From assembly GCF_947492715.1 (NCBI RefSeq), contig NZ_CANLNS010000001.1:1240001-1304000 (forward strand): 64,000 nt of DNA, in the 5' to 3' direction. The position numbers were made by a program, and so were the translations under genes. Position 1 is the stretch's first letter. The number at the start of each line of letters is the position of its first letter. The notes under the pieces are model-generated. The model did no database searches, was not told the origin of the DNA, and worked only from the letters and a program-made list of their open reading frames with translations. The DNA is from an uncultured Psychroserpens sp. (lineage in GTDB: Bacteria; Bacteroidota; Bacteroidia; Flavobacteriales; Flavobacteriaceae). Positions 3,030-25,974 of this stretch are shown here, piece by piece.

Positions 3030-4718
3030 ATGCGTTGGACTCTAAAACCAAAACAAGATCCGATTACTGTTGACACTTTGAAAAAAGCGTTGCAGGTTGA
3101 TGCGTCAATAGCTACGCTTTTAGTGCAGAGGGGTATAGAGACTTACGAAGAAGCCAGGACATTTTTTCGCCCAAGTTTAGATGATTTACACGATCCATTT
3201 CTTATGAAAGATATGGACAAAGCCGTTGCTCGTATTGAAGCTGCACTTCTTCAAGGCGAGAATATTTTGGTTTATGGCGATTATGATGTTGATGGAACAA
3301 CATCTGTGGCCTTACTATCATCCTATTTAGAAACGAAATCGGATCAAATTGCCACATACATACCAGATCGCTATGATGAAGGTTACGGCATCTCTTACAA
3401 AGGAATTGACTTTGCTCATGACAATGGGTTTTCGCTCATCGTTGCGCTAGATTGTGGTGTAAAAGCTATTGACAAAGTCGACTATGCTTCTGAAAAAGGA
3501 ATTGATTTCATTATATGCGACCATCATAGACCAGGTGAGGTATTGCCAAAAGCTGTGGCTATTTTAGACCCAAAGCGGAACGATTGTGAGTATCCTTTTA
3601 AGGAGTTATGTGGTTGCGGTGTTGGATTTAAATTAATACAGGCTTTAGCTTCAAAAGAGGGTAAAACTGTAGAGGAACTTTCGGAATACTTAGATTTAGT
3701 TGCTACTGCTATTGGCGCTGATATTGTTCCTATTGTTGGAGAAAACAGGGCCTTAGCTTATTTTGGATTACAAGTTATTAATTCGCAACCAAGACCGGGA
3801 ATTCAAGCCATTATTGAGCAGGTTCAAAAAGATAAACTTACAATTACAGATGTCGTATTTATTGTTGCGCCTCGTATTAATGCGGCAGGGCGAATGAAAC
3901 ATGGTAACTACGCCGTAACCTTATTAACTGAAACTGATGCAGTTCTTGCAAAAGCATACGCTCAAGAGATTAACGCTTTTAATCAAGATAGACGAGAAGC
4001 GGATAAGCGTATTACTGAAGAAGCGCTACATCAAATTACTGAACTAAATGAAGAAAACCGACTAACAACGGTTGTTTATGACGAATCATGGCATAAAGGG
4101 GTTATTGGTATTGTGGCGTCCAGACTCACCGAAACCTATTATAGACCAACATTAGTTTTTACTAAAAGCGGAGATAAACTTGCAGCTTCAGCAAGATCGG
4201 TTTCTGGTTTTGACGTTTATAATGCGTTACAGGCATGCAGTGAACATTTAGAACAATTTGGAGGTCATAAATATGCCGCAGGTTTAACACTTAAGGAGGA
4301 GAATTATGATGCCTTTAAACAAGCATTTGAAGATGAGGTTTCTAAAACAATTGACAGAAATTTACTCACACCAGAAATAAAGATAGACATGTGTCTTGAC
4401 CTGCGTCAGGTAGATCAAAAATTTTGGCGAATCATTAGTCAATTTGCACCATTTGGACCAGAAAATAGAACGCCTATTTTTATGACTGAAAACCTTAAAG
4501 ACACAGGATATGGAAGGTGTGTTGGAGGTGATGATAAGCACTTACGACTAACGGCAACGCAAGATGGTTATAACATTGTTGGTATTGGATTTAACTTAGG
4601 TGATAAAATAGACATCATTAAAAACCGAAAGCCATTTAACGCAGTATATTCTATTGACGAAAACCATTGGCAAGGTCAAGTAAGTTTACAATTAAAACTA
4701 CGAGACATTAAGTCATAA
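3030..4718 (+). CDS. recJ: Single-stranded-DNA-specific exonuclease RecJ
   Basis: RecJ degrades single-stranded DNA 5' to 3' in RecF-pathway recombination, mismatch repair and base-excision repair. The 562-residue length is normal for the family. DHH phosphoesterase motifs are in order: YGDYDVDGT (82-90), LDCGVKAID (about 140-148), the signature DHH (164-166) in ICDHHRPGE, and GCGVGFKLIQ (about 194-203). A DHHA1 domain follows, with GGHKYAAGLTL near residue 412. A C-terminal OB-like domain completes the protein. The ATG at 3030 leaves a 22-bp gap after the OsmC gene, and an OmpA-like gene follows 29 bp after the stop. Confidence 0.95.
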   Translation: MRWTLKPKQDPITVDTLKKALQVDASIATLLVQRGIETYEEARTFFRPSLDDLHDPFLMKDMDKAVARIEAALLQGENILVYGDYDVDGTTSVALLSSYLETKSDQIATYIPDRYDEGYGISYKGIDFAHDNGFSLIVALDCGVKAIDKVDYASEKGIDFIICDHHRPGEVLPKAVAILDPKRNDCEYPFKELCGCGVGFKLIQALASKEGKTVEELSEYLDLVATAIGADIVPIVGENRALAYFGLQVINSQPRPGIQAIIEQVQKDKLTITDVVFIVAPRINAAGRMKHGNYAVTLLTETDAVLAKAYAQEINAFNQDRREADKRITEEALHQITELNEENRLTTVVYDESWHKGVIGIVASRLTETYYRPTLVFTKSGDKLAASARSVSGFDVYNALQACSEHLEQFGGHKYAAGLTLKEENYDAFKQAFEDEVSKTIDRNLLTPEIKIDMCLDLRQVDQKFWRIISQFAPFGPENRTPIFMTENLKDTGYGRCVGGDDKHLRLTATQDGYNIVGIGFNLGDKIDIIKNRKPFNAVYSIDENHWQGQVSLQLKLRDIKS

Positions 4719-13890: not shown

Positions 13891-14779
13891 TCCTTATAAT
13901 GACCTCGTTAGTATTCTGAATTTCATAGGTCAAATTAAGGGGGTTCGTTATAGACTTTAAAGCATTTTCAAGATTGTCATGTTCAAAAGCACCTATGAAT
14001 TGAATACTCAAATCAGATGAATATTGTACCTTAATATTGTATTGCTTTTCTAGCTCGTCAATAACTTCCTCAAAAGAAGCGTTTTCAAATACACTCATAT
14101 TTTTAAGCCAGTAAGGCTCTGCTACGACAATATTCGATTTTATACTATGTCCTGATGATAGAACAAATTCAGTACCAGCAGGTAGCCTTATAATATCATT
14201 ATTATATGTGACTTGAACTAAGCCTTCATAACAAGAGACTTTAAAAATGCTATCCCTAGATAATACATTAAATTCTGTACCAAGAACACTGACTTTCCCA
14301 AATTTTGTATTTACATCAAAGCGTTTTCCTTTTTCAACATCAAAAAAGGCTTCTCCAAAAAGGTCTAATGACCTATTCTTATCCCAATTAGAATTAGAGT
14401 ATTCTAGACCAGATAATTGGTTAAGATTTACAATTGAATTATCAGGTAAAGTGATAGTTTGGTTTTGAGCTAAATTGGTCTTAAAAGAGCTTATTTGATC
14501 TTTGTTTAACAACGTAAACAATGCAAACCCAACAACAAGAGTAGCAGCAATACTAAAAGCAACTTTTAGCCAATTATTAGAAGTATTTTTTTGAGAAGCT
14601 AACTTTTTGTCTAACATATCAAAGGATTCGACTTTAGCATTTAAATAACCACTAAACTGTTGTGCGCTGTCAATAATTTCTTTATAGAACGTTGCATTTT
14701 CTAAAGCATTGAAAGACTCTGCCTCTAAAAGAGACAAATCATCATTCAACCATTTTTTTACTAAATACTCTTCGTTCAT
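13877..14779 (-). CDS. FecR family anti-sigma regulator (locus 1)
   Basis: This 300-residue inner-membrane protein has a cytosolic N-terminal helix region (about 1-70) that should bind the ECF sigma factor. One membrane span follows (about 71-91, VAFSIAATLVVGFALFTLL). The periplasmic FecR domain (about 97-195) has LPDNSIVNLNQLSGLEYS, LFGEAFFDVEKGKRFDVNTKFGKVSVLGTEFNV and CYEGLVQVTY. The C-terminal DUF4974/STN-like region (about 225-298) should contact the receptor. A locus-specific promoter lies directly upstream in the gap after the sigma gene, so fecR and the receptor are probably under control of this sigma factor. Confidence 0.92.
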   Translation of the reverse strand: MNEEYLVKKWLNDDLSLLEAESFNALENATFYKEIIDSAQQFSGYLNAKVESFDMLDKKLASQKNTSNNWLKVAFSIAATLVVGFALFTLLNKDQISSFKTNLAQNQTITLPDNSIVNLNQLSGLEYSNSNWDKNRSLDLFGEAFFDVEKGKRFDVNTKFGKVSVLGTEFNVLSRDSIFKVSCYEGLVQVTYNNDIIRLPAGTEFVLSSGHSIKSNIVVAEPYWLKNMSVFENASFEEVIDELEKQYNIKVQYSSDLSIQFIGAFEHDNLENALKSITNPLNLTYEIQNTNEVIIRNGQN

Positions 14780-14791
14780 AAAATAGGGTTA

Positions 14792-14825
14792 TATTCTTAA
14801 AACAATTTAAATTATAATTGTCCCA
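14792..14825 (-). promoter_or_regulatory. Putative ECF promoter (type 1) before fecR/receptor
   Basis: On the minus strand, TGGGACAATT (14825-14816), 10 nt, then TTGTTTTAAGAATA (14805-14792) lie in the sigma-fecR gap. The same two blocks with the same 10-nt spacing occur before the lipoprotein gene at 15506. The leader to the fecR ATG would be very short (about 12 nt or less). Confidence 0.6.
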
Positions 14826-14828
14826 GAA

Positions 14829-15353
14829 TTATTTTCGCTTGAGCTCTTCAAGCTCATTTTTTAATTTGTTAAAAGCCGCATAAATTCTGTGCTCAGCGAC
14901 TTTTTTGGTGATTCCTAAAATTTCTGCAACTTCTTTATGAGTTTTACCATCTACCTTGTTCAGTAAGAATGCAACTCTTTCTTCTTCCTTTAACTGTGAT
15001 AATACACGTTCAAATCGGGTTAGAAATTCTTTTTTGCGTAGAATAAATTCTGGAGATTCGTTTGTGTAATCCTTTGGTTTTACTTGTTGATGTTTTAAAA
15101 CAACCTTTTGGTGCTTGACCTCGTTGAGCATCATATTATTTGCTGTGGTGTATAAATATGATTTAGCAGTTTCTGGCTTGATTTTAGCACAATTTTTCCA
15201 GAGTTTAATAAATGCTTCTTGAACTTTGTCTGCTGGATTTAATAATTGACCATATTTATATAAAAGAATATTGCTCAATGATTGAGCATACTTCTCGTAA
15301 AGTTTTGAGAAGCGAGTCTTATCACATATATCTTGATGTAATGATTTTGACAA
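14829..15353 (-). CDS. ECF RNA polymerase sigma factor (locus 1)
   Basis: This 174-residue protein contains only sigma regions 2 and 4, as in FecI-type ECF factors of Bacteroidota. Region 2 is about residues 15-85 (LYEKYAQSLSNILLYKYGQ...DKVQEAFIKLWKN...KSYLYTTANNMMLNEVKHQ). Region 4 is about 110-165 (LSQLKEEERVAFLLNKVDGKTHKEVAEILGITKKVAEHRIYAAFNKLK) with a helix-turn-helix. It is first in an operon with fecR and a receptor. It shares the NEV-x-H-x-KVVLKHQ linker with the sigma factor at 22019, so the two loci probably arose by duplication. Confidence 0.93.
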   Translation of the reverse strand: MSKSLHQDICDKTRFSKLYEKYAQSLSNILLYKYGQLLNPADKVQEAFIKLWKNCAKIKPETAKSYLYTTANNMMLNEVKHQKVVLKHQQVKPKDYTNESPEFILRKKEFLTRFERVLSQLKEEERVAFLLNKVDGKTHKEVAEILGITKKVAEHRIYAAFNKLKNELEELKRK

Positions 15354-15410: not shown

Positions 15411-15444
15411 TGGGACAATTTTTTAATGGGTTGTTTTAAGAATA
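15411..15444 (+). promoter_or_regulatory. Putative ECF promoter (type 1) before the Asp-rich lipoprotein
   Basis: TGGGACAATT (15411-15420), 10 nt, then TTGTTTTAAGAATA (15431-15444). Both blocks and the spacing are identical to the element before fecR at 14792-14825. The leader to the ATG at 15506 is about 55 nt. Confidence 0.6.
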
Positions 15445-15505
15445 AAGAGGTTATTTAAAAACTAATTGATTAACGAACTTAAGATTTAATAAAATCCATT
15501 CCATT

Positions 15506-17388: not shown

Positions 17389-18456
17389 TTAATTTTTAAT
17401 AAGCTTTTTAGTCAGTATGCCTTCAGTGTATTTAAGCTCTATTAAATATAGTCCTGAAGTACATTCGGAAATATCAAAACGTTGACCGTCTGTTATGTTT
17501 GTTTCTTCTTTTATCAACTTCCCTGAAATATCATAAATAGATACTTTTTCTATTTCGGAATTTCCTAAGTGTTTAATTCTAAATGTTCCATTAATTGTTG
17601 GATTAGGTATAAGAGACACATCACTTTCATTGCTGTCCAGATCACTAACAGATAAGGTATCACAAGACCCTGAAATACCATTAGCAGAAGTGACTCTGAA
17701 ATTACCTTCTACATTCATTAGTTGAAAACCATTTAAACTTCCGTTTAAACTATTTGAAGACTTGTCAGTAACCATAGCTATTGCAGTATTATCTGTATCT
17801 ACCATACCTTGGTTGAGATCAAAGTTTAAGATTAATCCAGTTTCACTTCCATTTAATTCGCAATTTCTCGAGTCTGCAATGTCGCTAGCACTTCTTGCAT
17901 AGTTCCATATACGAATATCATCCAGCATGCCTTGTAAAGGATATGGATCGCCACCTGCCGTGGTACCAGCACCAATTCTTAGAGGGCTACTATTAGGTGT
18001 TAAGTTTCCTGAAACGGCTTGAGTTCGAACGTTTATACCATCAATGTAAAAATTCACTTCGGTACTACTTAAGGTCACAGCTATATGGTACCATTGATCT
18101 GGAGCCACAGTATTCCATTGATAATCGGTGAAATTGGCACCAATCCCAGCATGATAAAAACGAAAAATCTTATTTGCTCCATCGGTTAACAACATAAGTC
18201 CGTATGACTCGGTGTATCTGGATTTAGCAAAGATGCATTCCCAGTCCCATCCGTTTGTTGTTCTATTTATTTGATCAAAATTCACCCAAGCCTCGAAAGT
18301 AAAACTTGTTGTGAAATCTAATAAATCATTATCGGGAAGTTCTATATAATCCCATGAAGCGACTTGCCCATCAAAGTCTAATCCTGTAGCAGTTTGGGCT
18401 GTTGAAGTTTGGTATAAAAATACCATTGCAAGTAAAAAAAGTAATTGTTTTTTCAT
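17389..18456 (-). CDS. LamG-domain secreted protein with T9SS sorting domain
   Basis: This 355-residue protein has a signal peptide (about 1-20, ...QTSTA/QT). A LamG/concanavalin-like jelly roll follows (about 25-195) with YIELPDNDLLDFTTSFTFEAWVNF, WYHIAVTLSSTEVNFYIDG and GMLDDIRIWNYARSASDI. The last 75 residues are a type A T9SS C-terminal domain: PNPTINGTFRI, IEKVSIYDISGKLIKE, SGLYLIEL and TKKLIKN. It should pass the outer membrane by the type IX system and be attached to or released from the surface. LamG domains usually bind glycans or mediate adhesion. Its promoter matches the type 2 ECF element of the sigma locus at 22 kb. Confidence 0.88.
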   Translation of the reverse strand: MKKQLLFLLAMVFLYQTSTAQTATGLDFDGQVASWDYIELPDNDLLDFTTSFTFEAWVNFDQINRTTNGWDWECIFAKSRYTESYGLMLLTDGANKIFRFYHAGIGANFTDYQWNTVAPDQWYHIAVTLSSTEVNFYIDGINVRTQAVSGNLTPNSSPLRIGAGTTAGGDPYPLQGMLDDIRIWNYARSASDIADSRNCELNGSETGLILNFDLNQGMVDTDNTAIAMVTDKSSNSLNGSLNGFQLMNVEGNFRVTSANGISGSCDTLSVSDLDSNESDVSLIPNPTINGTFRIKHLGNSEIEKVSIYDISGKLIKEETNITDGQRFDISECTSGLYLIELKYTEGILTKKLIKN

Positions 18457-18795
18457 AATTAAATAGGTTAAATAATGTTTGTTACTCTTATGACATGTAA
18501 TTCTGAGCTTACCCTATTTTTTTTATTAAAAAAATTGTAATTCATCATGAATAAATGATGTTTAATCGGGTTTTTTAAAATACTTAATCGGATATAAAAG
18601 AAGTATACAAGCGCATTGGGTATCTATTAGTTCATTATTTGGAATGTTTCATTTTATATTTTATAGGAGGTATATTAAGAGTAGTAGAACATGAGCCAGG
18701 GATACTAGTAAAGTAAATGGGATGATTACTCTATAAAATTTATAGTTTTTGTTATACATGGGCTTCATAAATATTTGGGATTCATATGGTCTTTT
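18457..18795. other. Gene-free stretch between the LamG gene and the DUF3570 gene
   Basis: About 340 bp of AT-rich sequence. The right-hand 270 bp hold no ORF, hairpin or repeat I can support. The left part holds the type 2 ECF promoter of the LamG gene (18492-18521). It may contain the 3' untranslated end of the DUF3570 operon, but no clear terminator was seen. Confidence 0.5.
18492..18521 (-). promoter_or_regulatory. Putative ECF promoter (type 2) before the LamG/T9SS gene
   Basis: On the minus strand, AAAAATAGGGT (18521-18511), 13 nt, then CATGTC (18497-18492). The same arrangement lies before the thioredoxin/ApbE operon and before fecR of locus 2. The leader to the ATG at 18456 is about 35 nt. 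Confidence 0.55.
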
Positions 18796-20256
18796 CTAAT
18801 CTAATACAAACTTAAATCCGCTAGAAATAATGCTAGAGTTAAGTCCGTCACTTCTATCATAAATGCTATACTTTATATCAAATGACTTAAGACCAAAATT
18901 GAAGATTTTAAACGTTGTAAAAATATCTGTATATCTAAACCCTAAGCCATATTGATTGCTATTAAAACCTGATAAATCGTAGTCTGATGTATAAAACTCT
19001 GAGGAGGACGTATGGGCTTCATAAGGTGCAAAATAGTCTGCCGCGGTTTGGTTATAAAACCTATAACTAGGATAGAAGGTAAATTTACCGTTACCCAATT
19101 TAATAGGAAGTTCAATACTTATTGTATGCGAGTTAATTCCCCAATCATCAAAATAATATCGATAATACGTTCTTAACGCCATATTTTCATTTATATAGTA
19201 GTTAAAGCGAGCTCCAATTGGAATTTTGAATCGTGTGTCAGGCAATCGTTCGATATCATCTGCTAGTTGAAAAACATCAGTATTTGTTGGTGATGTATAA
19301 TTAGGAATATTTGCTGCATTTCCTATATAATAGTTTGGTCTATCATTAAAATAAACGCGTTGCATGGGGTTCGCGAGCCATCCTTTTTGTTGGATAACAT
19401 CTAAAAACAAAGAGAATTGTGCATTTTTACTCACTATTTGAGAAAAACTAAGGGATAAGGAATAAGAATTTCTTGACTCATCTTGTATAAGTGTTGTATT
19501 GAATGGATTCCAAACTATGGCGCCATTTTTATCAATGGCCTGCCCTTGTTGATCTAGAATATCGATACCACTAAAAAAACCGTTATTAAGATCTCCACCA
19601 GCTTCATTATACGAGTCTATTTCTGTTGGGTATCTTGGGCTCCAAGTGTCTAGAAAAACTTGTGCTTTAATTCCTAATTCTGTGTTCTTTTCATTAAACA
19701 ATTTAGTGAATCCTCCACCAAAGCCGATTGAGGTATAGTCGTATTCAGTTGCAAATCCAGCATTAACACTCCATATATTATTTCTATCATCTGAACTATG
19801 ACTATAACTAACAGTAACTCCTCCCCAAACATCCTTTGCAGAGGCTCCCGATGATTCTACCCACGGACTACCTGTTGGAGATGCATTTGCATTGCCTTCG
19901 TTGTCATCGTCATCTCCTCCTCCAGCAGAAGCTCCAGAAGAATCAAAAGGATCTAAATTACTCGAAGACGCCGAGGTATATGCAGAAATTCCTGCATCTA
20001 TAGTTAATACATCATCTGCATTTAACGGTATGGCAACGACAATAGTTGGGGTTATATCTGTAAGATGCTCGTCGCCTATGCCTCCAGTTACTGAAGCATG
20101 AGTTCCATCTTGTTGGTAATAACTCATTAAAAAATCAACTTCTGTTGTTTCTAATACGCGTTTTTTATAACCTGAAGATATAGAATCTTTATTCTTATCT
20201 TGAGAATGCAAAAGCAAAGAGAAGAAACACAAAATCGATACGAATAGATATTTCAT
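18796..20256 (-). CDS. DUF3570 outer-membrane beta-barrel protein with two SGAS motifs
   Basis: Starting at the ATG at 20256, the protein has 486 residues: a signal peptide (about 1-18, ...LLLHS/QD) and then alternating amphipathic strands that fill the rest and end FKFVLD, as in an outer-membrane barrel. Two copies of SSGAS occur near the N-terminus, at residues 106-110 and 135-139, separated by an Asp/Gly/Asn-rich loop. The [ST]GA[ST] core resembles the site where ApbE attaches FMN to target proteins. The ApbE gene lies in the same operon. An upstream in-frame ATG at 20340 would run back through the DUF4266 gene and is rejected. Only one base separates this start from the DUF4266 stop. The function is unestablished. 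Confidence 0.8.
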   Translation of the reverse strand: MKYLFVSILCFFSLLLHSQDKNKDSISSGYKKRVLETTEVDFLMSYYQQDGTHASVTGGIGDEHLTDITPTIVVAIPLNADDVLTIDAGISAYTSASSSNLDPFDSSGASAGGGDDDDNEGNANASPTGSPWVESSGASAKDVWGGVTVSYSHSSDDRNNIWSVNAGFATEYDYTSIGFGGGFTKLFNEKNTELGIKAQVFLDTWSPRYPTEIDSYNEAGGDLNNGFFSGIDILDQQGQAIDKNGAIVWNPFNTTLIQDESRNSYSLSLSFSQIVSKNAQFSLFLDVIQQKGWLANPMQRVYFNDRPNYYIGNAANIPNYTSPTNTDVFQLADDIERLPDTRFKIPIGARFNYYINENMALRTYYRYYFDDWGINSHTISIELPIKLGNGKFTFYPSYRFYNQTAADYFAPYEAHTSSSEFYTSDYDLSGFNSNQYGLGFRYTDIFTTFKIFNFGLKSFDIKYSIYDRSDGLNSSIISSGFKFVLD

Positions 20257-20257
20257 A

Positions 20258-20473
20258 TTAGTTACAGCCACAGCCTCCGCCTGTTTTTCCTCCATTTGCT
20301 CCAGAAGCACCTTCTCTGTAGACATGAAAATTAGTTTCAAAACGATCTATTTTGTTTGCGGATAATGCCATATCTGGATCATTAATATTAACTTTATCAT
20401 ACTCTTTAACAGCCACGCATGAGCTTAGAGATAGCAGTATTACTGTAATAGAAATTCCTTTTTTTATCATCAT
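20258..20473 (-). CDS. DUF4266 small lipoprotein with Cys-containing tail
   Basis: This 71-residue protein starts MMIKKG and has a lipobox ending at C19 (LSLSSC), so it should be a lipid-anchored periplasmic or outer-membrane protein. A short middle region follows, and the end is Gly-rich with two cysteines, C68 and C70, in GGGCGCN at the extreme C-terminus. That tail is the hallmark I associate with DUF4266. The closely spaced cysteines could bind a metal or form a disulfide handled by the thioredoxin-like protein of the same operon. It lies 17 bp after apbE and 1 bp before the DUF3570 gene. Its function is unknown. Confidence 0.8.
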   Translation of the reverse strand: MMIKKGISITVILLSLSSCVAVKEYDKVNINDPDMALSANKIDRFETNFHVYREGASGANGGKTGGGCGCN

Positions 20474-20490
20474 TAATTTTTTTGATTGTT

Positions 20491-21468
20491 TTATTTTATA
20501 TTGATGTTTTTAGAGTAGAATACTTTTCCGGTATCATCAACAATAATGCACTCTATATTTTGTAATTGATTAATAAAGTCTAGTCCAACATCTATTCCCA
20601 TAACAAAGATTGATGTTGCTAAGGCATCGGCTAGTTCGGCGCTTACGGAAAACACACTTACACTTACAATACCGCTGCTAGGATAACCTGTTCGTGGATC
20701 AATAATATGAGAGAATCTCTTTTTGTTAAGCACAACGAACTTTTCATAATTACCTGAGGTAACCACAGCGCTCTCATAAATTGGGAGAAGTGCAAATACT
20801 TTATTTTTATTTAGGGGGTTCTTAATTCCTATTTGCCAATCTTTACCTGAACGTTGTTTTCCCCATGTATTCATGTCTCCAGAAGCATTAATAATTCCAC
20901 CCTCGACACCTATTTTTTTTAATAATTCTTTAGCCTTATCTGCGGCATATCCTTTGCCAATAGCTCCAAACCCAATTTTCATTCCTTTGTGTTTTAGGTA
21001 TATAGAGTAGTTGTCTTCATTTAATATTATGTTCTTATAGCCTACTTTTTCAACAGATTTTTTGATACGGTCTTCAGATGGCATTTCGGTCATGGATCCA
21101 TCAAATTTCCAAATGCGATCCATAGATGCATAACTTATATCAAAAGCACCTTCTGTTAGTTTAGATATTTGAATGGCTCTTTTAATCAAATCAAAGAGTT
21201 CTTTATCTACAGTTACAGGTTTGATGCCTGCATTTCTATTTATTTCTGAAGTTTGAGAGTTTTTGTCCCATGAAGAAATTAATTTTTCTATTCTTGATAT
21301 TTCAGATACTGCTGTATCTATGTATGTGTTGGCTTCAATAGAATTTGTAGCTATAACAGTAATATCAAAACGACTCCCCATTAGCTTTAAAACACGTTTG
21401 TAAGTGCCCTGAGCTAAGGCTGTATAGTTAACACAAAACAATAGACCCAAAATAATTAGCTTCTTCAT
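20491..21468 (-). CDS. apbE: FAD:protein FMN transferase (ApbE family)
   Basis: ApbE moves FMN from FAD onto a Ser or Thr of extracytoplasmic proteins. The 325-residue length and a signal peptide (about 1-19) fit a periplasmic enzyme. Family motifs are present in order: LMGSRFDITV, ISRIEKLISSWD, AFDISYASMDRIWKF, IGFGAIGKGYAADKAKELL, NASGDMNTWGK, ITSGNYEKF-like VTSGNYEKF, HIIDPRTGYPSSG and the metal-binding Asp in SAELADALATS. No separate FMN_bind domain gene is found in the window, so the target is probably in the same operon. The best candidate is DUF3570 with its SGAS tracts. It is 4 bp from the thioredoxin-like gene upstream. Confidence 0.93.
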   Translation of the reverse strand: MKKLIILGLLFCVNYTALAQGTYKRVLKLMGSRFDITVIATNSIEANTYIDTAVSEISRIEKLISSWDKNSQTSEINRNAGIKPVTVDKELFDLIKRAIQISKLTEGAFDISYASMDRIWKFDGSMTEMPSEDRIKKSVEKVGYKNIILNEDNYSIYLKHKGMKIGFGAIGKGYAADKAKELLKKIGVEGGIINASGDMNTWGKQRSGKDWQIGIKNPLNKNKVFALLPIYESAVVTSGNYEKFVVLNKKRFSHIIDPRTGYPSSGIVSVSVFSVSAELADALATSIFVMGIDVGLDFINQLQNIECIIVDDTGKVFYSKNINIK

Positions 21469-21472
21469 TTAT

Positions 21473-21904
21473 CTATTTTTTAAAAGATTCTAATAATTTT
21501 ATGTAGGCCTCAGGTGTTGTCTTTTTAAATCCTGTCTCTCCTAAGACATTACCTTTTCCATCGAGTACAACTACATGTGGAAAGTATCCATATTTGTTAT
21601 ACATCTCAGCTAACTTCTTATTGTGATTTTGCTGCTTTTCGCTTAGCGCATTTTTTTTTCGTCTAGGGAAGTCTGCTTTTAACATCACAAAATGAGACTT
21701 TGCATAAGACTTAAATGTTTCCGATTGAAAAATAGTTCTATCCAATTTCATACAAGGTGCGCACCAATCTGACCCTTGAAACACTAATATTATAGTTTGT
21801 TCATTCTCTTGAGCTATAGACTTGGCAGTTTCCAAGTTAGTATTCCAATCTTGTGAAAAAACACTAAATGAAATTAAAAATGGTAAATAAAGAAGTAGTT
21901 TCAT
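21473..21904 (-). CDS. Periplasmic thioredoxin-like protein
   Basis: This 143-residue protein has a signal peptide (about 1-17, ...FSVFS/QD) and one thioredoxin fold with the active site C48-A-P-C51 (FQGSDWCAPCMKL). The cis-Pro loop appears as YGYFPHVVVLDGKG. It resembles the thioredoxin_7/DsbD-gamma-like group that reduces disulfides outside the cytoplasm. As first gene of the ApbE/DUF4266/DUF3570 operon it may keep the Cys-tail of DUF4266 reduced, which is inference from gene order. The start at 21904 is preceded by a type 2 ECF promoter. Confidence 0.88.
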   Translation of the reverse strand: MKLLLYLPFLISFSVFSQDWNTNLETAKSIAQENEQTIILVFQGSDWCAPCMKLDRTIFQSETFKSYAKSHFVMLKADFPRRKKNALSEKQQNHNKKLAEMYNKYGYFPHVVVLDGKGNVLGETGFKKTTPEAYIKLLESFKK

Positions 21905-21937
21905 GGTAAAGAATTACGTATTGGTCTCTATAGTTAA

Positions 21938-21967
21938 TACACGAAAAAACAACTTCACCCTATTTTT
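21938..21967 (-). promoter_or_regulatory. Putative ECF promoter (type 2) before the thioredoxin/ApbE operon
   Basis: On the minus strand, AAAAATAGGGT (21967-21957), 13 nt, then CGTGTA (21943-21938). It faces away from the sigma gene at 22019 and leaves a leader of about 33 nt to the ATG at 21904. Confidence 0.55.
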
Positions 21968-22018
21968 GATGATATATTTTAGTGCTTTGAGTATTTTTGA
22001 ACTCTCATTAGTTAAAAG

Positions 22019-22540
22019 ATGTCAGAAAAAGAACCTTCTATTTGTGAAGAAAAAATTTATAACGAATTATTTCGGAAATACTACGAGCCAGTAACGAAAT
22101 ACATTTATTATAAATGTGGAAATTTACATCAAGCAGAGGATATTGTTCAGAATGTATTTATTAAAATTTGGAAGCTTTGTGCTACTATTATTTACTCAAA
22201 AGCAAAATCTTATATTTATTCTGCATGTAACCATTCATTTTTAAATGAAGTCGCGCATGAAAAAGTAGTTTTAAAGCATCAGAAAACAGTAGAAGAACAT
22301 ACAAATTATGAAAGTCCAGATTTTTTAATAGAAGTTGATGAGTTTCGAATAAAACTAAAGCAAGCTATTAACATGTTAAACCCTAAAGAAAGGGAGGTTT
22401 TTTTATTAAGTAGGGTTGAAGATAAAACATATAAAGAGATTGCAGAAATAACAGGTCTTACAGTTAAAGCAATAGAGCGTCGAATGAGTAAAGCCTTGAG
22501 GGAATTACGAGACCTGCTTGGAGCGCATATTAAAGTATAA
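22019..22540 (+). CDS. ECF RNA polymerase sigma factor (locus 2)
   Basis: This 173-residue FecI-type sigma factor has region 2 (about 15-85: LFRKYYEPVTKYIYYKCGN...AEDIVQNVFIKIWKL...SYIYSACNHSFLNEVAHE) and region 4 (about 115-165: LNPKEREVFLLSRVEDKTYKEIAEITGLTVKAIERRMSKALRELR). It heads an operon with fecR and a TonB receptor. It is divergent from the thioredoxin/ApbE/DUF operon, with 114 bp between. No copy of the type 2 motif was found before the sigma gene itself, so its own transcription probably uses another promoter. Confidence 0.93.
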   Translation: MSEKEPSICEEKIYNELFRKYYEPVTKYIYYKCGNLHQAEDIVQNVFIKIWKLCATIIYSKAKSYIYSACNHSFLNEVAHEKVVLKHQKTVEEHTNYESPDFLIEVDEFRIKLKQAINMLNPKEREVFLLSRVEDKTYKEIAEITGLTVKAIERRMSKALRELRDLLGAHIKV

Positions 22541-22568
22541 AAATAGGGTAGGGTTTAATTTAAATGTC
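22539..22568 (+). promoter_or_regulatory. Putative ECF promoter (type 2) before fecR/receptor
   Basis: AAAAATAGGGT (22539-22549), 13 nt, then AATGTC (22563-22568), beginning inside the sigma stop codon and ending 23 nt before the fecR start. This is the third copy of the element. Confidence 0.55.
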
Positions 22569-22591: not shown

Positions 22592-23491
22592 ATGATGAAA
22601 AATTACGATAATGATGATACTTTTTTAGGACGCTGGATTGCAGGAGAACTATCTGACGAGGAACTTATTGCCTTTAAAAAGACCGAGACATATAAACAGT
22701 TTAAACTCATTAATAGGGAGTCTCAATTATTAGATGGTCCCGATATTGATGTCGAAAAGGCACTGCATGATGTAAAGCAGAAACTAAAACAAAACAAACC
22801 TAAAACAATTCGTCTTTGGCAAACTATTACTGTCGCTGCCATGTTAATTATAGCGTTAGGTGTATTTTTCAATTCATCAAAAACCTATACAAATGCAATT
22901 GGTGAAACGCAAACAATCGTTCTAGAAGATGGTTCAAAGGTGCATTTAAACGCTAACTCCAGTCTTTCGTTAAAGCGCTTCTTTTGGTCAAATAATAAAA
23001 CGGTAAATTTAGATGGTGAAGCCTATTTCATAGTTACAAAAAACAATGATTTTAAAGTAAAGACTTCAAAGGGTATAGTTAAGGTATTAGGAACAAAGTT
23101 TAATATAAAAGACAGATCTTATTTTGAATTGAAATGTTACGAAGGAAAGGTTAAGTTTTCTCAGTTGAGCGATGCATCTTCTTCGAAAATTTTGACCCAA
23201 GGAATGCAAATAATAATTGATGATAATCTGGTTGAAGATGTACTTTTTAAAGAAGAATCACCTTTGTGGAGAAAAGGTGTTTCAAAATTTGACGAGCAAC
23301 CGTTACATCTAGTATTAGAGGAATTAACGCAGTATTTCGATATCACTTTTGATGCTCATAACATTAACAAAAACAGATTGTTTTCAGGAAGTTTTAATCA
23401 TAATGATTTGGATTTGGCGTTAAAGGCAACATTAATCCCAATGGGAATAAATTATAAAATCGAGAAGCAAACGATTATCCTGTCTGAATAA
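22592..23491 (+). CDS. FecR family anti-sigma regulator (locus 2)
   Basis: This 299-residue protein has a cytosolic sigma-binding N-terminus (about 1-74), one membrane span (about 75-94, WQTITVAAMLIIALGVFF), and a periplasmic FecR domain (about 100-190). That domain has LEDGSKVHLNANSSLSLKRF, VNLDGEAYFIVTKNNDFKVKTSKGIVKVLGTKFNI and CYEGKVKF. A C-terminal DUF4974 region (about 225-298) ends GINYKIEKQTIIL. It relays the state of the receptor at 23530 to the ECF sigma at 22019. Two ATGs stand in tandem at the start, and either could be used. Confidence 0.92.
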   Translation: MMKNYDNDDTFLGRWIAGELSDEELIAFKKTETYKQFKLINRESQLLDGPDIDVEKALHDVKQKLKQNKPKTIRLWQTITVAAMLIIALGVFFNSSKTYTNAIGETQTIVLEDGSKVHLNANSSLSLKRFFWSNNKTVNLDGEAYFIVTKNNDFKVKTSKGIVKVLGTKFNIKDRSYFELKCYEGKVKFSQLSDASSSKILTQGMQIIIDDNLVEDVLFKEESPLWRKGVSKFDEQPLHLVLEELTQYFDITFDAHNINKNRLFSGSFNHNDLDLALKATLIPMGINYKIEKQTIILSE

Positions 23492-23529: not shown

Positions 23530-25974
23530 ATGAAACATTATTTTTTTGTTTTAGTATTCTTTTTTTCTATGACGATTTTTGCGCAGCAAAAACAGAATTT
23601 CAAATACACTCAAACCCCTTTGTCTCAAGTATTAAAAGAGCTTCAAGAGAAAAATAATGTATCCATTTCGTTTGCGTCTGATGTTGTCGAAGGTATTCTT
23701 GTTAGTCTTGATTTAAAGCAAGTTACTTGGGTAGAGTTTTTGTCGGTTTTAGAAAGTGAAACGGGTTTGATTTTTAAAAAAATATCCGACAATCAGATTA
23801 TAGTCACGCCCAATATAGATCGCGATAAACTGCTGCCTATTGAAACATTAGATGATGTTATTATTCTGGGATATGTTACAAACGGGATAGATAAAAAGAA
23901 AGACGGTTCTATTGTTGTTGATACTGAAAGGTTAGGGATTTTACCTGGAATGGTAAATACTGATATCGCACAAAGTATCCAGCTAATTCCTGGGGTTTCA
24001 ACTTTAGATGAATCGGCTACAGGAATACAAGTTAGAGGTGGTTCCCCAGATCAAAATTTAGTGCTATACGACAATATTAAATTATTCAATACTGGATATT
24101 TCTATGGCATGTTTTCGTTATTTAATCCTTTTGCCACCCAAAAAGCTACCATTTATAGATCAGGAACAAGTGCTAAATATGGTGATCGTATTTCTGGGAT
24201 TATAGATATTTCTAGTGGCAATAAAATTTATGAAAACACTAAAGGAGGATTTGAAATAGATGGTTTATCTATAAATGGCTATGTTAAAACACCATTATCA
24301 AGTAAGATAGGGTTATATCTATTTGCAAGAAGGTCGTATTCGGACCTATTAAAAACGCCTACTTACAATAGTTATGTAGATAAAATTTTTACAAATTTTG
24401 GTGTTGCTAGAGATATTAATGGAAATATTTTGCAGTTAGAAACCGACGATGATTTTAGTCCAGAAACTAGCAATAATACATTTAATTTTGCCGATGTTAG
24501 TACTAAGTTGATTTTTAAACCAAATGAAAGAAATAACATCGAATTTAGCGCATTGTATACTAGAAATCGTTTAGATTTCGATTTTAAAGGTGGAGATGAA
24601 GTCCTTGTAGATTCGCTAATCACTCAAAATAAAGGACTAAGTTTTAACTGGAAACATAAAAGTAACGAAAAGCAAGAAGAGGAGATTACAGCTTACTTTT
24701 CTGAATACAATTCTTTTTATCAGAACGATGAAATCAAAGATGAAACAGGAGATGGTATTTTAGACCTGAGCGAAGTTAATATTAGAGAAAATAATATTAC
24801 AGATATTGGCGTCAACTTTATGTCCTTTAGACAAATTACTGCCACTCAGAAACTAACATTGGGTTATCAGTTGTCTTATACAGATCTAGATGTTACCATA
24901 AGTAAAGAAAAGCCTCTAGAACTTGAAAAAGAGGTCTTATTGCAAGACGATCATAATCTTAAGAATGCATTATTTGCAGAGTACAGTATAGGCTTAAAAA
25001 ATAAAGGCTTGATTAATGCTGGTTTGCGATTTTCACATTATGGTAGTTTAAATGAATTTTTAATTGAACCTCGTGTCAATTTTGAATACCCTTTAAGCAA
25101 ACGTCTCAGAACAAAAATCGCAATAGAAAGAAGAAATCAACCCATTTCACAGTTAATAGAGTTTAATCATACAGAATTACGTCTTGAAAATAATTTATGG
25201 CGATTATCAGATAATGATCAATATCCATTGCTCTCTAGTAATCAAATTTCAGGAGGATTATTGTATTACCATAAAAACTTAAACATTGACGTAGATTTTT
25301 ATTATAAAGAACTAAAAGGACTAACAACTTTTACTAACGGATTTAGTAATCCCTTGGAAAATTTAGAAAAAGGAGAAAGTACTATAAAAGGGATTGACGT
25401 TTTATTAAAATATAAGCGAAAAAACTATAAAATTTGGCTTGGTTATACATTTAATGATATTATTTTTCGGTTCCCAAACTTAGCCGATACACCATCTAAA
25501 TTTAATGGTAATAACGACATTACCCATCAATTTAGAATATCCAATTCGCTTAAATTAAACCAATGGCAGTTTGCAATAGGATGGCAAATAAGAACAGGTA
25601 AACCAATAACGCCTGTAAACAGTTATACTATAGAAGTTGATGCTGATGGTGAAAATGCGGGAGTTGTAAATTTTGGCGTAATAAATAGTGATAGATTGCC
25701 AAGCTTTCATAGATTAGATGCGTCGGTTTTATATGATTTTAAGATTAAAAAAACAGATGCACAATTTGGTATATCATTTTTAAATATTTACAATAGGATA
25801 AAACCAATAAACGTAATTTACAAAGCAGAACGAAAACCTCTAGATGATGGTGGGATTGCTATAGAAGGCACAACTGGCGAAACACCAGAAGAGCGAGAAA
25901 TTATATTAGAACAGGTAATTCAACGGTTTTCATTAGGGTTTACACCTAATATTTCTTTTAAGTTGTTTATTTAA
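23530..25974 (+). CDS. TonB-dependent receptor with STN signalling domain (locus 2)
   Basis: This 814-residue receptor has a signal peptide (about 1-18), an STN domain (about 22-95, FKYTQTPLSQVLKELQEKNNVSISF...), a plug (about 115-235 with TGIQVRGGSPDQNLVLYDNIKLF) and a beta-barrel ending ISFKLFI. Unlike the locus 1 receptor, it has no CarboxypepD_reg domain between STN and plug. It is last in the sigma-fecR-receptor operon. The linkage to an ApbE flavinylation operon raises the possibility that its ligand is a redox cofactor or a metal complex, but no sequence feature shows this. It converges on the alpha/beta hydrolase gene with 7 bp between stops. Confidence 0.9.
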   Translation: MKHYFFVLVFFFSMTIFAQQKQNFKYTQTPLSQVLKELQEKNNVSISFASDVVEGILVSLDLKQVTWVEFLSVLESETGLIFKKISDNQIIVTPNIDRDKLLPIETLDDVIILGYVTNGIDKKKDGSIVVDTERLGILPGMVNTDIAQSIQLIPGVSTLDESATGIQVRGGSPDQNLVLYDNIKLFNTGYFYGMFSLFNPFATQKATIYRSGTSAKYGDRISGIIDISSGNKIYENTKGGFEIDGLSINGYVKTPLSSKIGLYLFARRSYSDLLKTPTYNSYVDKIFTNFGVARDINGNILQLETDDDFSPETSNNTFNFADVSTKLIFKPNERNNIEFSALYTRNRLDFDFKGGDEVLVDSLITQNKGLSFNWKHKSNEKQEEEITAYFSEYNSFYQNDEIKDETGDGILDLSEVNIRENNITDIGVNFMSFRQITATQKLTLGYQLSYTDLDVTISKEKPLELEKEVLLQDDHNLKNALFAEYSIGLKNKGLINAGLRFSHYGSLNEFLIEPRVNFEYPLSKRLRTKIAIERRNQPISQLIEFNHTELRLENNLWRLSDNDQYPLLSSNQISGGLLYYHKNLNIDVDFYYKELKGLTTFTNGFSNPLENLEKGESTIKGIDVLLKYKRKNYKIWLGYTFNDIIFRFPNLADTPSKFNGNNDITHQFRISNSLKLNQWQFAIGWQIRTGKPITPVNSYTIEVDADGENAGVVNFGVINSDRLPSFHRLDASVLYDFKIKKTDAQFGISFLNIYNRIKPINVIYKAERKPLDDGGIAIEGTTGETPEEREIILEQVIQRFSLGFTPNISFKLFI

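Follow-up and report, generated by a model that had tools for sequence, protein, structure and literature searches.

Gene content of the locus

The DNA stretch analysed here, referred to as the window, comprises 64,000 nucleotides from the genome of an uncultured Psychroserpens sp. (Flavobacteriaceae; positions 1,240,001 to 1,304,000 of contig NZ_CANLNS010000001.1). It carries a FecI-like extracytoplasmic function (ECF) sigma factor followed by a FecR-like protein and a TonB-dependent receptor, a divergent operon for extracytosolic flavinylation (thioredoxin-like protein, ApbE, DUF4266 and DUF3570) and a LamG surface protein with a sorting tail of the type IX secretion system (T9SS). A bipartite motif stands in front of fecR, of the thioredoxin gene (trx) and of the LamG gene. 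From the sequence comparisons described below we conclude, with a probability of roughly 0.86, that these genes belong to one cell-surface-signalling regulon of the FecI/FecR/receptor kind, in which the sigma factor at 22019 would read the motif before fecR-receptor, the flavin operon and genes of surface proteins.

The gene identities named in a preliminary description of this DNA were all recovered by family scans (among them Laminin_G_3 with T9SS tail, Thioredoxin_7, sigma-70 regions 2 and 4, and the TonB plug; Table 1). The ApbE, DUF3570, DUF4266 and thioredoxin-like genes lie together, all above the Pfam cut-offs. Against the narrower model TIGR02985 the sigma factor reached 115.3 bits, under the cut-off of 126.4.

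Table 1. Genes and putative promoter copies of the locus, with window coordinates.
Feature	Position	Strand	Evidence or remark
LamG (concanavalin-like) surface protein with T9SS type A sorting tail	17389..18456	-	PF13385 102.1 bits; C-terminal sorting domain TIGR04183 55.9 bits (cut-off 23), PF18962 47.5 bits (cut-off 27)
Promoter copy 3, AAAAATAGGGT-N13-CATGT(C)	18493-18521	-	5′ of LamG gene; also at LamG ortholog of isolate ALC-1 (L006)
DUF3570, predicted outer-membrane beta-barrel, SGAS at residues 107 and 136	18796..20256	-	PF12094 138.5 bits
DUF4266 small protein, GCGCN end	20258..20473	-	PF14086 72.2 bits
ApbE, FAD:protein FMN (flavin mononucleotide) transferase	20491..21468	-	PF02424 287.8 bits
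Thioredoxin-like protein (CAPC), signal-peptide-like start by eye	21473..21904	-	PF13899 53.2 bits; CAPC from translation
Promoter copy 2, AAAAATAGGGT-N13-CGTGT(A)	21939-21967	-	5′ of trx
ECF sigma factor (FecI-like), proposed regulator	22019..22540	+	PF08281 64.6 bits, PF04542 33.7 bits
Promoter copy 1, AAAAATAGGGT-N13-AATGT(C)	22539-22567	+	at sigma stop codon, 5′ of fecR
FecR-like anti-sigma/signal transducer	22592..23491	+	PF04773 64 bits, PF16344 32.6 bits
TonB-dependent receptor, putative N-terminal STN-like domain, proposed sensor	23530..25974	+	PF07715 (plug) 36.8 bits, above cut-off

Putative promoter motif in the window and its own genome

Three exact and equally spaced copies of AAAAATAGGGT-N13-(C/A)(A/G)TGT were located by pattern search, at positions within one base of those first reported. 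Each can be written as AATAGGGT followed by 15 bases and TGT, with an A-rich stretch immediately 5′. TGT is followed by C at fecR and LamG and by A at trx. The short distance to the start codon described before was found again with slightly shifted values: instead of 23–35 nt, measurement from the end of TGT gave 24 nt (fecR), 34 nt (trx) and 36 nt (LamG). No copy is directed at the sigma gene itself.

The zero-mismatch matches of the pattern in the window are these three copies alone. With up to three mismatches, 10 matches were obtained versus 8.6 expected, which corresponds to chance level, and the relaxed counts (up to three mismatches, or AATAGGGT with one) were dropped as evidence, being at or near chance. 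The case therefore rests on the exact copies and on other genomes. In the window's own genome of 4.2 Mb, AATAGGGT-N15-TGT matched five times (reversed control: 2), three of the matches being the window copies. Of the remaining two, the first precedes an mrp-like gene by about 100 bp and the second falls within a gspE-like coding frame; both have no purine (R) after GGGT and were rejected as members of the regulon. With the purine included, AATAGGGT-R-N14-TGT yields three matches, all of them the window copies, and none in the reversed control. The genome-wide scan proposed in the preliminary description thus revealed a motif that is not scattered.

Co-occurrence of motif and sigma factor

To compare the locus with relatives, the best 80 of 565 ApbE relatives from a protein search were kept as loci. 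An orthologous sigma factor was defined by at least 62% identity (E ≤3.9e-71), the next matches having at most 54%, with the 8 best candidates scored per genome. By this definition 9 of 397 genomes of the family carry the ortholog, window included and well apart from the next matches. An order-wide search gave no further carrier; its single hit in 376 genomes was the window's own genome. Together with four loci covered by locus-only searches (L006, L016, L017, L029), 13 sigma-bearing genomes were available; the loci L024, L030 and L033 were taken to represent the genomes G195, G328 and G392 and were counted once. Among the 80 ApbE loci, seven contain the orthologous sigma-fecR-receptor set divergent from the flavin operon and 73 do not.

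AATAGGGT-N15-TGT was found 5′ of fecR and also 5′ of trx in 13 of 13 sigma-bearing genomes. The fecR copy always sits at or just 3′ of the sigma stop codon, and a FecR homolog lies beside the sigma gene in 13/13 loci. Within the ApbE set, the motif precedes trx in 7/7 sigma-bearing loci and in none of the 71 sigma-less flavinylation operons (of 73) that offered enough upstream sequence, within about 300 bp of trx. Conservation upstream of the orthologous fecR and trx genes, which had been named as a check on the motif, is thereby confirmed. One sigma-less locus (L073) holds a single copy elsewhere, at 3530. TGT is followed by C in 13/13 fecR copies and in 11/13 trx copies. Sigma and trx are separated by a large surface-type gene in G277, where this gene and trx have a motif copy each.

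At the level of whole genomes, AATAGGGT-R-N14-TGTC occurs two to seven times in each of the nine sigma-bearing genomes, 34 times in total compared to one match in the reversed control. Without the final C, 44 sites were obtained versus 4 in the control. Genomes without the sigma factor have at least one AATAGGGT-R-N14-TGTC copy in 64 of 388 cases (73 genomes with a match minus the nine). G328 and G392 contain, by eye, a decayed second copy of the operon with trx to DUF3570 fragments in which the motif is intact (L151 6065, L154 2953). The earlier proposals of a single ECF regulon and of the sigma at 22019 as its regulator thus gain support, the former from the conservation at fecR and trx and from motif numbers that track the sigma factor, the latter from the genome-wide co-occurrence of both. 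That this sigma factor reads the motif is what we infer from these comparisons.

Boxes, spacing and paralogous sigma factors

When the gap between the two boxes was allowed to vary from 10 to 20 bases, 34 sites appeared at exactly 15, and 19 were spread over the ten other lengths (one G363 site, first given at a shorter overlapping match, was counted at gap 15). The boxes are invariant in the 13 fecR and 13 trx sites, and the first half of the spacer mostly shows at most 1.2 bits. Partial conservation is seen in a T-rich stretch before the putative -10 box and, among the fecR sites, also in the final bases of the spacer. Outside the boxes, fecR and trx sites differ from each other.

As a control, the gap between sigma and fecR was read in 21 loci with paralogous sigma factors of 47–53% identity. 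Here, GTAGGGT was found at 19/21 and AATAGGGT at 0/21. Of the 19 GTAGGGT loci, 14 have TGTT after an identical 15-base spacer; three deviate, and two were not fully read. In the paralog of the window's own genome GTAGGGT is present as well, whereas TGT is replaced by GGT. At each box, the promoters of orthologs and typical paralogs are hence one or two letters apart. The sigma proteins themselves, compared between 13 orthologs and 17 paralogs after prior exclusion of 4 of the 21 paralogs (L102, L110, L113, L114), show the fixed differences L53/N, I152/V and R154/K as well as the nearly fixed T56/K and T148/S. Residues 53, 152 and 154 may be those that read the changed promoter letters.

With so few differing positions at identical spacing, several related ECF sigma factors could serve these promoters, the adjacent one being just one of them. 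The sigma-less flavin operons point in this direction as well: five of the 71 (L048, L064, L065, L070, L080) have a paralog-type GTAGGGT-N15-TGT 5′ of trx, three of these with TGTT, so that the operon seems to be served there by the other type. L043 has GTAGGGT-N15-CGT at this place. These operons look as if they had been rewired to another ECF sigma factor. However, an A/G letter in the -35 box and a C/T letter in the -10 box tell the two types apart, the AATAGGGT-type copies track the ortholog, and residues 53, 152 and 154 are fixed differently in the two groups. We therefore regard shared use by several sigma factors as rather unlikely.

Another possibility is that the motif represents the operator, or the two half-sites, of a separate DNA-binding regulator. 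Bipartite sites are typical of dimeric regulators too, and two conserved neighbouring genes (C14 and C15, each in three loci) appear regulator-like by reading of their sequence. The motif is, however, direct and non-palindromic and is oriented toward its gene. From the end of TGT to the first start codon there are 17–53 nt at 39 of 44 fecR, trx and surface-gene sites (7, 71, 137, 186 and 188 nt at the others, the true start not always being certain), and both boxes shift together with the sigma factor between orthologs and paralogs. TGTC and TGTT are compatible with the -10 boxes of ECF sigma factors. In Bacteroides thetaiotaomicron, ECF-linked promoters show TGTT near -10 (PMC12596196; this and the further articles given by PMC number are cited for parts of their text). 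An operator is accordingly improbable compared to a sigma-type promoter. The genes C14 and C15 themselves gave no matches to the motif at up to three mismatches at the five places tested.

In G363 we also observed fifteen copies of GTAGGGTA-N14-TGTTT (reversed control: 2), compared to zero to three in the other eight genomes. They probably mark a large regulon of a paralogous ECF sigma factor.

Surface proteins as proposed targets

In total, 18 of the 44 sites in the nine whole genomes stand at fecR or trx, 13 precede surface-type genes, 2 accompany decayed copies of the operon and 11 are found in other places. If TGTC is required, 34 sites remain: 17 at fecR or trx, 13 before surface-type genes, 2 at decayed copies, one behind a fibre gene of G195 and one in a coding frame of G384. 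Thus, 13 of the 17 TGTC sites outside fecR and trx precede genes of surface proteins. Here "secreted" and "surface" refer to domain matches and to signal-like starts recognised by eye. A surface-type target with motif is present in 10/13 genomes (nine whole genomes plus four loci), giving 18 surface-gene sites; the downstream genes were read before these sites were chosen, so that the boxes of this class are invariant by selection.

The third class of targets first described as a LamG/T9SS gene was confirmed as far as the motif is concerned, while LamG turned out to be only one among several kinds of surface protein in the relatives. The "glycan-binding" ascribed to the LamG protein is a prediction from its fold. 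LamG targets occur in the window and in ALC-1. Eight targets are fibre genes with an FNYQ-type N-domain (two in Kordia, one each in Bizionia, Lacinutrix, G195 and G277, two in G363). In the five fibre proteins that were scanned, YadA-head repeats, C1q or TNF ends, or S74 at the end were recognised; of these matches, one to YadA-head and one to TNF scored below cut-off. Further targets are a LamG protein of 1630 residues and an Ig-like protein of 1148 residues (G277), a Sortilin-like protein (G363), a HYR protein of 2019 residues whose frame is cut by the end of the stretch (G156), a protein of 1022 residues with T9SS tail (G328) and, with no match to any family, two short proteins (343 and 346 residues; G363, G195).

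By a crude pattern, the fibre N-domain was found in 4/7 sigma-bearing loci versus 0/73 others, in loci of differing length. Among nine proteins put to NCBIfam, three of the fibre type matched Bdello_MAT_N with 34.0, 30.8 and 34.2 bits at a cut-off of 60. By this cut-off the fibres are not members of the MAT family, and their N-domain may be called weakly similar and MAT-like.

The motif copies at surface genes could be a by-product of their neighbourhood, with only fecR and the flavin operon forming the regulon. The class varies in protein type, a member with motif is missing in 3/13 genomes, and one G195 copy sits behind a fibre gene. Many sites, however, lie far from the sigma factor, and each of them precedes a surface-type gene: one in G363 at 60 kb on C1 and four on C7, one on C21 of G195 and one on C10 of G328. 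A regulon without surface proteins is therefore hardly to be expected.

Three sites outside the regulon classes which lack TGTC were left out as unproven: C8 of G195 (6 nt before a frame of 686 residues), C27 of G195 (58 nt before a lipoprotein-like frame) and C6 of G328 (60 nt before a frame of 726 residues with signal-like start). As a separate observation, several surface-type proteins (L145, L148, L153, L155, L160) have in common a C-terminal region with an LPEN or LPEG.. end and DxNxDG repeats; Pfam and NCBIfam scans of two short proteins with such a region gave 0 families.

Weight of the regulon assignment

Conserved motifs could also arise by chance or because close relatives simply inherited the same non-coding sequence. 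All carriers belong to one family, the T-rich part of the spacer is conserved and, in the fecR set, so is the surrounding of the -10 box. A DUF3570 tree of 52 proteins (the window and 51 of 75 listed relatives), which holds 8 of the 13 sigma-bearing genomes, places the eight sigma-linked proteins within one supported group of ten (100/99), two members of which are sigma-less. This fits, but does not prove, a single origin with one gain and two losses. Nevertheless, invariant boxes stand beside a variable first spacer half, trx and fecR sites combine the same boxes with different surroundings, and the motif-bearing surface genes encode several unrelated domain types. This explanation is extremely improbable. 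In the same tree, the flavin operons of two bins labelled Chlorobiota (L007, L046) are placed among Flavobacteriaceae, which could be due to mislabelled bins or to transfer.

A number of observations weigh against the single regulon. Due to the single origin that the tree suggests, the 13 genomes do not amount to 13 independent proofs. The ortholog set is patchy and, among the genomes searched, confined to one family; the two other sampled species of the window's genus are without the sigma factor. The fecR copy overlaps the sigma stop codon with its first A's in several genomes, and the trx copies of the window and of ALC-1 read TGTA and not TGTC. The STN domain of the proposed sensor scores 20.2 bits, below the cut-off of 28.4 (the FecR_C model matches residues 24-92 of the receptor). 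Some sites outside the regulon classes precede reading frames, these sites being without TGTC. Near the operon of G148 and of G392 there are large surface-type genes that lack the motif; a search for near matches there gave one stretch with three mismatches in G148 and none in G392. Of 2000 stretches of 300 bases drawn at random from G195 loci, 72 had a best match with three mismatches. G384 has no surface target with motif. On C2 of G195 (L158 3089-3330), an S74-type fibre gene ends 20 bp before a motif copy; the listed stretch beyond this copy contains no forward frame of at least 40 residues, and no near match was found upstream of the fibre gene. Given these exceptions in G148, G392, G384 and G195, the surface class is neither universal nor tidy. 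The stretch at the G195 copy contains stem-loops and a T run, and an RNA scan matched a PyrR element under the gathering score; it might encode a small RNA or be what is left of the promoter of a gene since lost.

Flavinylation operon and DUF3570 model

DUF3570 was reported to be flavinylated as ApbE substrate at two [S/T]GA[S/T] sites in Chlorobium luteolum (PMC8238504). Similarly, the protein of the window has two SGAS motifs. An exact-pattern count of [S/T]GA[S/T] in its relatives revealed two sites in 17/75 and one in 58/75. The CxC end of DUF4266, noted in the same work, is present in 68/68 relatives scored.

A structure model of DUF3570, based on an alignment of 52 sequences, consists of many long strands (predicted local distance difference test 84.8, predicted template modelling score 0.78). 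Its best solved structural matches are outer-membrane porins and channels of the OmpG, FadL and OprD type; the 50 matches listed range from E 2e-11 to 1.5e-9 with template modelling (TM) scores of 0.24–0.62. Because of the strand-rich model and these matches, DUF3570 is predicted to be an outer-membrane beta-barrel, an assignment which extends to nothing finer. In the model, strands 3 and 4 are connected by a low-confidence loop (residues 99-141) that contains both SGAS sites and, judging from the order of the strands, would face the outside or the lumen.

Proposed mechanism

Within the proposed regulon, AATAGGGT-R-N14-TGTC with the A-rich bases just 5′ would be the -35/-10 promoter of the sigma factor. 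Binding of a ligand at the TonB-dependent receptor would be passed on to FecR, and the sigma factor would be freed. It would then transcribe fecR-receptor, trx-apbE-DUF4266-DUF3570 and at least one surface protein, the LamG/T9SS protein in the window and often long fibres in relatives. As the sigma gene has no motif copy, such a loop would act on receptor and anti-sigma and not on the sigma factor. In the DUF3570 barrel, both SGAS sites would receive FMN from ApbE, and the thioredoxin and the CxC protein DUF4266 would supply or withdraw electrons. For the direction of signalling and for the path of the electrons we infer this order from the gene set.

What the system is for can be guessed: perhaps redox chemistry while the cell is surface-attached, for example ferric-iron reduction or reductive iron release. 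The two indications for iron are the likeness to FecIRA and the VIT1 association of the flavin system (PMC8238504). A wider scheme is conceivable and put forward tentatively, as one we would not expect to hold in full. Flavobacteriaceae might possess a contact-redox programme, in which one receptor-gated sigma factor co-produces an outer-membrane flavin conduit and surface fibres or lectins that keep the cell attached to whatever is being reduced or oxidised. The conduit would be the DUF3570 barrel, whose two FMN sites share a single long loop, probably facing outward or into the lumen. In more general terms, the gap between a FecI-like sigma gene and its fecR might disclose the promoter that the sigma factor itself reads, making the regulons of many Bacteroidota ECF sigma factors readable from sequence.

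Comparison with known systems

The sigma-fecR-receptor order and a putative sigma-type promoter before fecR-receptor are shared with FecI/FecR/FecA signalling, as may be the STN-like receptor domain. In contrast, the output extends here to an extracytosolic flavinylation operon and surface proteins, and the promoter is AATAGGGT-N15-TGTC, from which the fecA promoter of Escherichia coli differs. The locus would thus represent a known kind of system, ECF surface signalling, with an unexpected output and a promoter that we did not find in the literature surveyed.

Clusters of the identical four genes DUF3570, DUF4266, thioredoxin and ApbE were described by Meheust et al. in 2021 (PMC8238504), with 316 DUF3570 clusters without and 227 with DsbD and a function termed uncertain. 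In its main text, "sigma factor" occurs 0 times, and "outer membrane" and "TonB" once each, about another system. Compared to these clusters, the regulator, the promoter and the co-regulated surface proteins are added here. The main text of PMC11334425 mentions neither DUF4266 nor sigma factors.

With the MAT fibres of Bdellovibrio (PMC10769870) the fibres of the relatives have in common a weakly similar N-terminal region, fibre-type repeats and, as an S74 subfamily and others, different tips; they differ in the N-domain, which reaches 31–34 bits versus the cut-off of 60. No link of MAT fibres to a sigma factor or flavin system was seen in the part of this article considered. ECF sigma factors are also tied to surface protein secretion in the Bacteroidota Flavobacterium and Porphyromonas (PMC9723704, PMC4800418), including an ECF-like CGT -10 motif at T9SS genes of Flavobacterium psychrophilum (PMC9723704). 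There, the secretion machine is regulated, whereas here it would be surface cargo together with a redox system.

The non-canonical promoter of B. thetaiotaomicron, with ECF-linked TGTT near -10, is in line with the paralog type, and PMC12596196 ties this TGTT to the non-canonical motif of PMC7366714. In the parts of both articles at hand, neither a GGGT-type -35 box nor a flavin/adhesin regulon was seen. TAGGGT was encountered in PMC10951265 and PMC3646045 in primers only. A survey, by title and start of the abstract, of literature on ECF promoter motifs, FecR systems and flavinylation in Bacteroidota did not reveal this code or regulon; the ECF classification paper (10.1093/nar/gkaa1229) was outside its coverage.

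If correct, the regulon ties the common DUF3570 flavin system to a surface receptor and adhesive-looking surface proteins, by which its function becomes testable. It also suggests a promoter code for FecI-like sigma factors in Bacteroidota, with AATAGGGT-N15-TGTC in this clade, GTAGGGT-N15-TGTT in the sister clade and TGGGAC-N14-TTGTTTTA at a neighbouring locus 1. Exchange of AATAGGGT for AGTAGGGT and of TGTC for TGTT should then move a promoter from this sigma factor to the paralogous one.

Neighbouring locus 1

Locus 1 of the window exhibits the same design. TGGGACA-N13-TTGTTTTAAGAAT was found at 14779-14829 (-) and 15412-15445 (+), before fecR1 and a divergent META/lipocalin-like gene (15506). 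In the counterpart of this locus in Maribacter ulvicola (L012), TGGGATA-N13-TTGTTTTA is present at both places.

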